Shown one piece after another: positions 2,668 through 60,557 of a stretch of 64,000 nucleotides of DNA. A model generated the notes under the pieces. That model had not been told where the DNA came from. It saw only the letters and a program-made list of their open reading frames with translations, and did not search any database. The position numbers and the translations under genes were made by a program. The number at the start of each line of letters is the position of its first letter. Within the stretch, counting starts at the first letter, position 1. The stretch is taken from positions 5,208,001-5,272,000 of the forward strand of contig NZ_JACHMY010000001.1 in the NCBI RefSeq assembly GCF_014205135.1, in the 5' to 3' direction. The DNA comes from Kribbella italica. Lineage in GTDB: Bacteria > Actinomycetota > Actinomycetes > Propionibacteriales > Kribbellaceae.

Positions 2668-2685
2668 CCGCTTGCCCTCAGCAAC

Positions 2686-2717
2686 AAAGGCCCCCACGGT
2701 GCTCCGTGGGGGCCTTT
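2686..2717 (+). terminator. Rho-independent terminator after gltA
   Basis: A perfect 14-bp stem (AAAGGCCCCCACGG pairing with CCGTGGGGGCCTTT) with a TGCT loop, 18 nt after the gltA stop. Confidence 0.88.
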
Positions 2718-2754
2718 GCCGTACTCCCCCGAGCCTCAGGGTCACCCCGAGCAG

Positions 2755-10503: not shown

Positions 10504-10519
10504 AGGGCAATCTAACGCA

Positions 10520-10557
10520 ACAGCGCCCCCGCACCGTGACCGGTGCGGGGGCGCTGT
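10520..10557 (-). terminator. Strong hairpin terminator after rplQ
   Basis: A perfect 17-bp stem: ACAGCGCCCCCGCACCG at 10520-10536 pairs with 10541-10557 around a 4-nt loop (TGAC on plus). It lies 13 nt after the rplQ stop and 17 nt before the truA start. The T-tract is poor, but the stem is very stable. Confidence 0.75.
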
Positions 10558-10570
10558 GACGTACTGGGTG

Positions 10571-18094: not shown

Positions 18095-18134
18095 AAAAAG
18101 GTCCGCCCGGCGACGTGTGGTCGCCGGGCGGACC
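18095..18134 (-). terminator. Rho-independent terminator between adk and map
   Basis: On the minus strand a perfect 15-bp stem (GGTCCGCCCGGCGAC pairing across a 5-nt loop, 18100-18134) is followed at once by TTTTT (18095-18099). This is the most canonical intrinsic terminator in the window and closes the rpsJ-to-adk block. Confidence 0.88.
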
Positions 18135-18140
18135 CGGAGT

Positions 18141-18713
18141 TCATTCGCCGAGCGACTTCAGGGCGGCGAGCACGCGCTCGCTGACCTCGTCGATCTCGCC
18201 GACGCCGTCCACCTCGACCAGCAGACCGCGCTGCGCGTACACCTGCAGCAGCGGCTTGGTCTCGGCGGTGTAGACGTCCTGGCGGTGCCGGACGACCTCC
18301 TCGGAGTCGTCCGCCCGGCCGTCGATCTTGGCCCGCTTGAGCATCCGGTCCACCAGGACGTCGGCGTCGGCGACCAGCGCCACCACCGCGTCCAGTTTGT
18401 GGCCGTGCTCGGCCAGGATGTCGTCCAGCGTGCCGACCTGCGGCAGTGTCCGGGGGTAACCGTCCAGGAGAAAGCCCGCGCCGGCGTCCGCTTCGGACAA
18501 CCGGTCCCGCACCATTGCGTTCGTGACCTCGTCGGGGACGTAGTTGCCCGCGTCCATGAACCGCTTCGCCTCGAGACCCAGCTCGGTCTCGTCCTTCACG
18601 TTCTGCCGGAAGATGTCGCCGGTGGAGACTGCCGGGATGTTCAGACGCTCCGCAAGCACCTTTGCCTGCGTGCCCTTGCCCGCCCCGGGCGGACCCATCA
18701 GCAACATTCTCAT
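18141..18713 (-). CDS. adk: Adenylate kinase (short form)
   Basis: 190 aa; interconverts ATP+AMP and 2 ADP. P-loop [11 protein letters not shown] at 7-17, AMP site ISTGD-like VSTGDIFR, and [11 protein letters not shown]. The LID region is short ([16 protein letters not shown]), without a zinc-binding insert, as in other short actinobacterial enzymes. Its start overlaps the secY stop by 1 nt. Confidence 0.96.
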
Positions 18714-20014
18714 CAGCGCAGGAACCCTTCGTAGTTACGCTGCTGCAGCTGACTCTCGATCTGCTTCACCGTGTCCAGTCCGACGCCGACCATGATCAGG
18801 ATCGACGTACCACCGAACGGGAAGCTCTGGCTGGCGTTCAAGAGCACCAGCGCGATCAGCGGGATCATCGAGATGACCGCGAGGTAGAGCGCGCCAGGCA
18901 GCGTGATGCGGGACAGAACGTAGGAGAGGTACTCCTCCGTCGGCCGCCCAGCCCGGATCCCCGGAATGAAGCCGCCGTACTTCTTCATGTTGTCAGCAAC
19001 TTCCTTCGGGTTGAAGGTAATCGAGACGTAGAAGTACGTGAAAAAGATAATAAGCGCGACGTACGTCACCATGTAGATGGGGTGGTCGCCCTTGACGAGG
19101 TTGCCCTGGATCCACTGCGCCCATTTCTCGTCCTGCCGGAACTGGCTGACCAGGACGGGCAGGTAGAGCAGGCTGGAGGCGAAGATCACCGGGATGACCC
19201 CGGCCTGGTTGACCTTCAGCGGGATGTACGTCGAGGTCCCGCCGAACATCTTCCGGCCGACCATCCGCTTGGCGTACTGCACCGGGATCCGGCGCTGCGC
19301 CTGCTCGATGAAGATGACCGCGGCCATGATCACCAGACCGACCGCCAGCACCGCCAGGAACGTCGGGATGCCGTGGCTCTTGCGGATCGCCCAGAGCTGG
19401 GTCGGGAAGGTGGCGACGATCTGGGTGAAGATCAGGATCGACATACCGTTGCCGACACCGCGGTCGGTGATCAGCTCACCGAGCCACATGACCACACCGG
19501 TACCGGCGGTCATGGTGAGCACCATGACGACGACCGGGAACACCTTGTCGCTGTGCAGCAGCTGCTCGTTGCAGCCCTGGAAGAGGCGGCCGGGGGTCCG
19601 GGCGAGCGCGACGAACGCGGTCGCCTGCAGGACGGCCAGGCCGACGGTCAGGAACCGGGTGTACTGGGTGATCTTGCCCTGTCCCGCCTGACCCTCCTTC
19701 TTCAGCGCCTCGAGCCGCGGGATCACCACGGTGAGCAGCTGCAGGATGATGCTGGCGGTGATGTACGGCATGATGCCGAGCGCGAAGATCGCGAGCTGCA
19801 GCAGCGCACCGCCGGAGAACAGGTTGATCAGGTTGTAGAGGTTCGCGTTCTCACCCTGCTGGGAGAGCTGCAAACAGGTGTCCAGCGACTTGACGTTGAC
19901 GCCAGGCGCCGGCACGACCGAACCGATTCGGAAGATCACGACGATGAAGAGCACGAACAAGATCTTCCGGCGCAGGTCCGGAGTCTTGAACGCGTTGGCA
20001 AAGGCGCCTAACAC
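18713..20014 (-). CDS. secY: Protein translocase subunit SecY
   Basis: 433 aa with about ten membrane segments; the central channel of the Sec translocon. Recognised by [20 protein letters not shown], the plug region near the N terminus ([10 protein letters not shown]), [10 protein letters not shown] and the cytoplasmic loop [20 protein letters not shown]. It ends in [11 protein letters not shown]. It is separated from rplO by 132 nt holding a long inverted repeat, and overlaps adk by 1 nt. Confidence 0.97.
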
Positions 20015-20085
20015 CCTGTCCTCCCACAGTTATCCGATGCCCGCTCAGGGCAAGGGCCTAGCAAAGCAGCTGGGCAAGAGACGAA

Positions 20086-20143
20086 CCAGGGCTCGTCCGG
20101 CAACCAGCGCACAATATCAGCGCATGAGCCGTACGAGCCCTGG
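20086..20143 (-). repeat. Long imperfect hairpin in the rplO-secY intercistronic region
   Basis: Outer arms CCAGGGCTCGT (20086-20096) and ACGAGCCCTGG (20133-20143) pair perfectly over 11 bp. After a C/T mismatch, CGGC (20098-20101) pairs with GCCG (20128-20131). Across a 5/4-nt internal loop, GCGC (20107-20110) pairs with GCGC (20120-20123) around a 9-nt loop. The total is 19 bp in three helices. It could be an attenuator, a processing site or a protein-binding RNA. Confidence 0.65.
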
Positions 20144-20146
20144 CAC

Positions 20147-20587
20147 TCACACCTCGGTGGTGGATCCCCCGGCCGCCGCGATCTTCTCCTTGGCGGACTT
20201 GGAGAACTTGTTCACCGAAACCTGCAGTGCCACGGTCAGTTCGCCGTCACCCAGCACCTTCACCGGCTGACCACTTCGGACCGCGCCCTTCGCGACGAGC
20301 TCGGTCACACCGACCTCGCCGCCCTCGGGGAACAACTGTCCGAGCTTCTCCAGGTTAACGACCTGGAACTCCACTCGGTTCCTGCTCTTGAAGCCCTTGA
20401 GCTTCGGAAGCCGCATGTGCAGCGGCATCTGGCCACCCTCGAACCACTCGGGGATGTTGTTACGGGCCTTGCTGCCCTTGGTACCGCGGCCGGCCGTCTT
20501 GCCCTTGCTGCCCTCACCACGACCCTTGCGGATCTTGGTGGTCTTGGCTCCGGGCGCCGGACGCAGGTGATGAACCTTGAGCGCCAT
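20147..20587 (-). CDS. rplO: 50S ribosomal protein L15
   Basis: 146 aa; a large-subunit protein that helps fold domain II of 23S rRNA. Glycine-rich N-terminal tail ([20 protein letters not shown]) and the core [20 protein letters not shown]. The ATG at 20587 is the standard start ([14 protein letters not shown]), one base after the rpmD stop; the longer open frame upstream is rpmD read out of frame. It precedes the hairpin region before secY. Confidence 0.96.
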
Positions 20588-39865: not shown

Positions 39866-39901
39866 CGAGGGCGGCACCCCCAGGTGGGAGTGCCGCCCTC
39901 G
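39866..39901 (-). terminator. Hairpin terminator after rpoC
   Basis: CGAGGGCGGCAC (39866-39877) pairs perfectly with GTGCCGCCCTCG (39890-39901). It begins 21 nt after the rpoC stop. The following minus-strand sequence has only a short TTT. Confidence 0.7.
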
Positions 39902-59747: not shown

Positions 59748-60478
59748 GCGGTCTCACATCGGTCACCGAAGGCGCCGCCCTCTCACACCCGCGGCCCGAG
59801 CTGCTCGACGTCACCGGCCTGCGCGGCCTGGCCGGGCTCGCGGTCGTCGCGTCGACGGTCGGCGTCTGGCGCGGAGCGCCGGTGTACCTGAAGGACCTGG
59901 TCGATCTGACGGCGTCGGTGGCTGTCGTCTTCTTCTTCGTGCTGTCGGCGTTCGTGCTGACCTACAACTACCCAGGCCTGTCCTACACCTCCGGCCGGCG
60001 CGTCATCGGCCGGTACGCCGCGGCCCGGGTGGCTCGGATCGTTCCGCTGTACCTGGTCGTCGGACTGGTCGTCCTGCTGCTCGGCATGCTGAACGGCGGT
60101 GACTGGGTCCGAGACGTGTGGACCGACCAGACCTGGTTCGTCGGTGCGCTCGTCCTCTTCTACGTCGCGTTCCCACTGCTCAACCGGCCGCTGGCCTTCG
60201 TCCTCGGCAAGACCGTCCGTCGCCTGCCGCCGCTCACCTGGCTGGCGCGTCCGTTCCTGGTCCGGCTCGGTGTGATCGGTTACCCGCTCTTCCTGCTGCA
60301 GACCCTGGTCCTGCACGGCTTCGGCCCGGTCCACGCGGGCACGATCTCCAACGCGCTGCTCGCCCTGGGCTGGATCGGCCTCGTCGTCCTGACCGCCGAG
60401 GGCGCCCACCGGTACGTCGGCGTACCGGCTCGCCGCGCACTGCTCGATCTCGCGCGCCGCCTCGACCACCGGACGTGA
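59744..60478 (+). CDS. Short, probably inactive acyltransferase-3 paralogue
   Basis: 244 aa against 414 for its neighbour. The N terminus is alignable (LLDVTGLRGLAGLAVVASTV, FFVLSAFVLTYNYPG, AARVARIVPLYLVV keeping RxxR), and the C-terminal ending (TAEGAHRYVGVPARRALLDL) matches its neighbour's (IGEGAHRLIEVPARRFVLRL). The middle is largely missing, and where the catalytic His of LHH should be there is AST. So it is probably a degenerate or regulatory subunit. GTGA overlap with the first gene. Confidence 0.7.
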   Translation: MSGLTSVTEGAALSHPRPELLDVTGLRGLAGLAVVASTVGVWRGAPVYLKDLVDLTASVAVVFFFVLSAFVLTYNYPGLSYTSGRRVIGRYAAARVARIVPLYLVVGLVVLLLGMLNGGDWVRDVWTDQTWFVGALVLFYVAFPLLNRPLAFVLGKTVRRLPPLTWLARPFLVRLGVIGYPLFLLQTLVLHGFGPVHAGTISNALLALGWIGLVVLTAEGAHRYVGVPARRALLDLARRLDHRT

Positions 60479-60479
60479 C

Positions 60480-60511
60480 GAAGGGCGGCTCCCTCGCGGG
60501 AACCGCCCTTC
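60480..60511. terminator. Convergent terminator after the acyltransferases and rplL
   Basis: GAAGGGCGGCTCCC pairs with GGGAACCGCCCTTC, with one mismatch and a TCGC loop, followed by GTTCT on the plus strand. It starts right after the acyltransferase stop and lies 47 nt after the rplL stop. Confidence 0.7.
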
Positions 60512-60557
60512 GTTCTACTGCTGGGGTGTGCGGCCGTCAACTACGCAGCCGCACAGG

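Follow-up and report, generated by a model that had tools for sequence, protein, structure and literature searches.

A conserved rplO-secY hairpin in Kribbella as a probable operon terminator with a candidate secY promoter nested within it

The spc operon of E. coli includes secY and has its uS8 control site at rplE (PMC10931766). In GC-rich actinobacteria, terminators typically combine unusually stable hairpins with only 3-4 U among 10 tail nucleotides (PMC12207403), and the published -10 element is TAnnnT, as described for Streptomyces and Corynebacterium (PMC8079986, PMC3890552). Here we describe the junction between rplO and secY in a stretch of 64,000 nucleotides (the window) from a Kribbella genome assembled as a single contig of 8.9 Mb, with the genus represented by 38 genomes in the comparison. 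The operon shares its gene neighbourhood with the spc operon of E. coli and lies on the minus strand, with adk and map downstream of secY. The rplO-secY gap is 132 nt long and holds a hairpin that begins 3 nt past the rplO stop. Our preferred explanation, to which we give a probability of about 0.6 from analysis of sequences, is that the hairpin is the terminator of the ribosomal-protein operon and has the promoter of secY-adk-map nested within it. The Kribbella element most likely represents a known kind of terminator-promoter junction in compact form and not a new class of regulatory RNA. We found no direct precedent, in the papers that were searched, for a promoter inside a terminator, which is no proof of novelty. 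The genes and the parts of the hairpin are as follows.

20147..20587, minus strand: rplO (ribosomal protein L15), upstream of the hairpin (NCBIfam TIGR01071, 138 bits)
20587-20585 and 20149-20147, minus strand: ATG and TGA codons of rplO
20086..20143, minus strand: conserved hairpin that probably terminates the ribosomal-protein operon (z = -7.7; 38/38 genus genomes; covariation)
20133..20143, minus strand: outer 5' arm, CCAGGGCTCGT, nearly invariant in the 38 genomes
20086..20096, minus strand: outer 3' arm, ACGAGCCCTGG, pairing with the 5' arm; in several species a change of A to G gives a U-G wobble
20076..20085, minus strand: U-rich tail after the hairpin, TTCGTCTCTT, 6 T in 10
18713..20014, minus strand: secY, first gene of secY-adk-map (NCBIfam TIGR00967, 447 bits)

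Read as mRNA, the element runs CCAGGGCUCGU ... UGAUAUUGU ... ACGAGCCCUGG and then UUCGUCUCUUGCC, with an 11-bp base, a short internal loop, a 4-bp middle helix, an upper helix and a 9-nt apical loop. A preliminary description of this DNA had pointed out an inverted repeat with this base and loop, and the repeat is real: its minimum free energy on the plus strand is -36.9 kcal/mol, as opposed to -15.8 +/- 2.8 in dinucleotide shuffles (z = -7.7; 0/200), and on the gene strand it is -38.5. The same description gave no strand for the operon, and its statement that there is no T-tract is true of the plus strand only; on the mRNA strand UUCGUCUCUU, with 6 U in 10 nucleotides, comes after the hairpin, and the tail holds 5-7 T in 37 of the 38 genomes. 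Five other strong hairpins of the window were checked; each is found no more than 60 nt from where a long ORF ends, and their loops measure 2-5 nt, compared with 9 nt in the rplO-secY hairpin. Strong short-loop hairpins near long-ORF ends, at window positions 2685-2718, 10515-10562, 39866-39901 and 60478-60513, are likely ordinary terminators. Within secY-adk-map itself, a perfect 15-bp hairpin between adk and map (18100-18134, minus strand), with a TTTTT tail right after adk, has the form of a textbook terminator; in contrast to the rplO-secY hairpin, it was matched by eye in just about 5 of 30 members of the genus.

All 38 genomes have a gap of 131-136 nt with the hairpin in place. A covariance model gave one match per genome, besides a weak reverse-strand image and isolated marginal matches; searches with this model found no second copy in the element's own genome apart from that image, and only weak matches at other places in other genomes. 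A mobile or repeated palindrome of the REP type is ruled out by the single copy in its own genome. When the named genomes were scanned for the pattern of arms and loop, 21 places were returned, 20 of which are in genomes named Kribbella. The remaining one, NZ_JAAGLV010000010.1 (L151), is labelled Streptomyces sp. SID13031; the Kribbella element is present in this record, which probably belongs to a mislabelled Kribbella.

Covariation, by which the preliminary description had proposed to judge the structure, bears it out in the 38 Kribbella genomes. In the model alignment of 38 sense matches, from which 24 distinct rows were used for covariation, standard pairs occupy 94% of pair cells and six pairs are changed on both sides. 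Double-change cells number 29, compared with 10.6 in shuffles (0/500 as high), and registers slid by 1-3 columns are just 26-43% paired. The covariation sits in the inner helix, and the outer 11-bp stem is nearly invariant, its few changes being mostly wobbles that come from the 3' arm. The conserved pairing and covarying inner helix therefore indicate that it is the RNA structure of the hairpin that is conserved, with a further constraint on sequence in the outer arm. Nearly invariant outer arms that flank a promoter-like core could also be read as a DNA operator, in which the arms are two half-sites for a protein controlling the secY promoter between them. We consider this highly improbable, as U-G wobbles occur in the 3' arm (in 7 of 24 rows at pair 11-62) and the inner helix covaries, which is more readily explained by pairing in RNA than by a symmetrical DNA site, and the element as a whole has no second copy in the genome.

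The position, stability, covariation and tail of the hairpin appear to fit the terminators of GC-rich actinobacteria. It is the stable, GC-rich hairpin after a last gene that is sought in an intrinsic terminator (z = -7.7; 3 nt past rplO; 38/38), and the 6 U in its tail exceed the 3-4 of Streptomyces terminators and fall below the classical 7-9 (PMC12207403). It shares with the terminators mapped by Term-seq in Streptomyces its length, high stability and covariation, its position just after a stop codon and a tail that contains few U. It differs from them in a loop of 9-11 nt that holds a -10 motif, and termination in Kribbella is a prediction. An automated terminator scan of the window did not call the rplO-secY hairpin.

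The apical loop of the hairpin contains the features of a candidate promoter, which are listed here with the start region predicted from them.

20111..20119, minus strand: candidate extended -10 of the apical loop, TGA-TATTGT; no other TAnnnT in the gap, 38/38 genomes
20134..20139, minus strand: weak -35 candidate GGCTCG, 17 nt upstream of the -10; its sequence is not nTGACn
20101..20107, minus strand: region where secY transcription is predicted to start, within the hairpin's 3' half, placed by the usual distance from -10 to start

The sole TAnnnT of the entire gap lies in the apical loop in 38/38 genomes, which are close relatives and do not represent 38 independent events of loop conservation; in three of them, two overlapping readings are possible there. 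Seven forms of the hexamer occur (TATCCT in 17 genomes, TATTGT in 10, TATCGT in 5, TAGTCT and TACTCT in 2 each, TATATT and TACCCT in 1 each). TGA or TGT stands ahead of the hexamer in 34 genomes, and the exact TGn spacing is absent in four. The distance from GGCTCG in the outer 5' arm to the hexamer is 16-18 nt in all 38 genomes, which is a normal spacer between -35 and -10, and the distances from the hexamer to the 3' arm and to secY range over 12-17 nt and 99-106 nt, respectively. Because the loop has the only TAnnnT, the 16-18 nt spacing and a distance to secY like that in several other families, we infer that it holds the secY promoter. This candidate resembles actinobacterial housekeeping-sigma promoters (PMC8079986, PMC3890552) in having TAnnnT, mostly with TGn, 16-18 nt past a conserved block, and differs from them in having GGCTCG in place of nTGACn and in lying within a hairpin. 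A simple sigma-70 scan of the window found no promoter at this place, and a degenerate pattern search upstream of AGGGCTCGT was uninformative.

The place, stability and tail of the hairpin would also suit a plain terminator or partial attenuator that lowers transcription into secY, with the TAnnnT of the loop as a loop preference or a relic and with secY reached by read-through or from another promoter in the gap. TAnnnT is readily found by chance, with an occurrence of 67% in shuffles of the gap (10% for TGnTAnnnT), and most species have a relic-like TGCTAGGCC further downstream. As a -10 element, however, this downstream sequence was rejected, since its last position is not T in any genome. 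In addition, the loop motif remains the one TAnnnT of the gap in 38/38 genomes while its variable positions change freely, the motif keeps a constant distance of 16-18 nt from the outer arm, and relatives have a clear secY promoter in the same gap, which makes a plain terminator rather unlikely in our view. The loop sequence could instead be conserved for an RNA reason, and the promoter of another sigma factor could lie unrecognised in the gap before secY.

Comparison across the order and the class places the Kribbella hairpin in a broader context. In most cases, the rplO-secY gap of other families has a hairpin past rplO, followed by a motif such as TGTTAGGCT, TGTTAGAGT, TGTTACAGT or TGATAGGCT before secY. 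The order has TGnTAnnnT in 27 of 32 gaps and the class in 16 of 37, where shuffles predict 0.6 and 1.3, respectively; in several other families, TGTTAnnnT stands about 102-103 nt ahead of secY. A hairpin followed by an extended -10 is apparently the layout of an operon end and a promoter for the next unit. The Kribbella locus shares with these terminator-promoter junctions the same genes and the same order of functional elements, but elsewhere the promoter mostly comes after the hairpin, whereas in Kribbella it is nested within it. What seems unusual in Kribbella is thus that the terminator-like hairpin and the putative secY promoter occupy the same DNA. In the gaps of four relatives (L123, L124, L138 and L139, family f21), GACTCG or GACGAG stands exactly 17 nt before TGTTAnnnT; its resemblance to the Kribbella GGCTCG may reflect a shared -35 variant or chance.

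Nesting may not be confined to Kribbella. In two relatives from the order (L078 and L081, f3/g15), the secY promoter motif TGTTAGAGT lies inside the 3' arm of a long rplO-secY hairpin, and a class relative (L146, f39/g79) has a long, nearly perfect rplO-secY hairpin with TATGAT in its apical loop, which is a possible third case. These are single cases checked by hand; an automatic count of overlaps picks up incidental folds and is not cited. The hairpins of Kribbella, f3/g15 and f39 show no apparent relation in sequence, and nesting could therefore have more than one origin.

The comparison across order and class also bears on the proposal of the preliminary description that the hairpin sets the ratio of SecY to ribosomal proteins. 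In outline this idea is supported, as the position of the hairpin suits an uncoupling of secY; the dedicated regulatory or processing RNA that was to bring it about is not supported, and the comparison points to an operon boundary with a terminator-like hairpin followed by a secY promoter. As the target of a ribosomal protein or the substrate of an RNase, such an RNA would set the ratio within one long transcript. The strong covariation, the nearly invariant outer stem and the existence of an alternative hairpin between 3' arm and tail speak for it, and RNase could act on the hairpin. We nevertheless judge this improbable: the Rfam 15 covariance models gave no match in the window at gathering score, matches to our own model are confined to Kribbella at rplO-secY while other families have unrelated hairpins there, and the known uS8 control site of the operon is at rplE in E. 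coli (PMC10931766).

In the nested arrangement that we prefer, transcripts arriving from upstream would fold, after rplO, into the long GC-rich hairpin with its modest U-rich tail, and would largely terminate, or have their 3' end set, at this point. The promoter of secY-adk-map would use the same DNA, with its extended -10 TGnTAnnnT in the loop and its weak -35 in the outer 5' arm. Initiation is predicted about 7 nt past the loop hexamer, in the 3' half of the hairpin and 87-93 nt ahead of the GTG of secY. Since a secY mRNA that starts there lacks the 5' arm, it could not form the terminator and would thereby be protected from it. Instead, a small leader hairpin may form between its 3' arm and the tail; this hairpin is listed here with the rest of the presumed leader.

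20079..20098, minus strand: alternative small hairpin of 3' arm and tail, GGACGAGC/GTTCGTCT, which folds and is possible only without the 5' arm
20038..20075, minus strand: another two small helices in the presumed 5' UTR of secY, with pairs mostly kept and three showing double changes
20020..20025, minus strand: Shine-Dalgarno sequence of secY, GGGAGG, invariant in the genus alignment

The helix between 3' arm and tail (GGACGAGC/GUUCGUCU) is paired in 99.5% of cells and has no double changes, and hence a real switch is only a possibility. The three small helices of the presumed leader (20038-20098, minus strand) are well kept in the genus, although the stability of the presumed leader does not exceed that of shuffles (z = -0.04); a regulatory secY leader is a possible reading.

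More tentatively, the sharing of nucleotides may itself have been selected. It would make the secY transcript immune to its own terminator, and polymerase bound at the promoter may block read-through from the ribosomal-protein genes. The alternative hairpin of 3' arm and tail would be part of the same design, and nesting would have arisen more than once, in Kribbella, in f3/g15 and possibly in f39.

If confirmed, our findings would mean that a terminator hairpin and the promoter of the next gene can merge into a single element of about 60 nt that a whole genus retains, and this fusion would account for an outer arm that is conserved in sequence besides pairing. Annotation that assigns separate intervals to terminators and promoters would overlook nested junctions of this kind. 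More broadly, the comparison suggests that secY-adk-map is usually its own transcription unit in Actinomycetia, unlike in E. coli.
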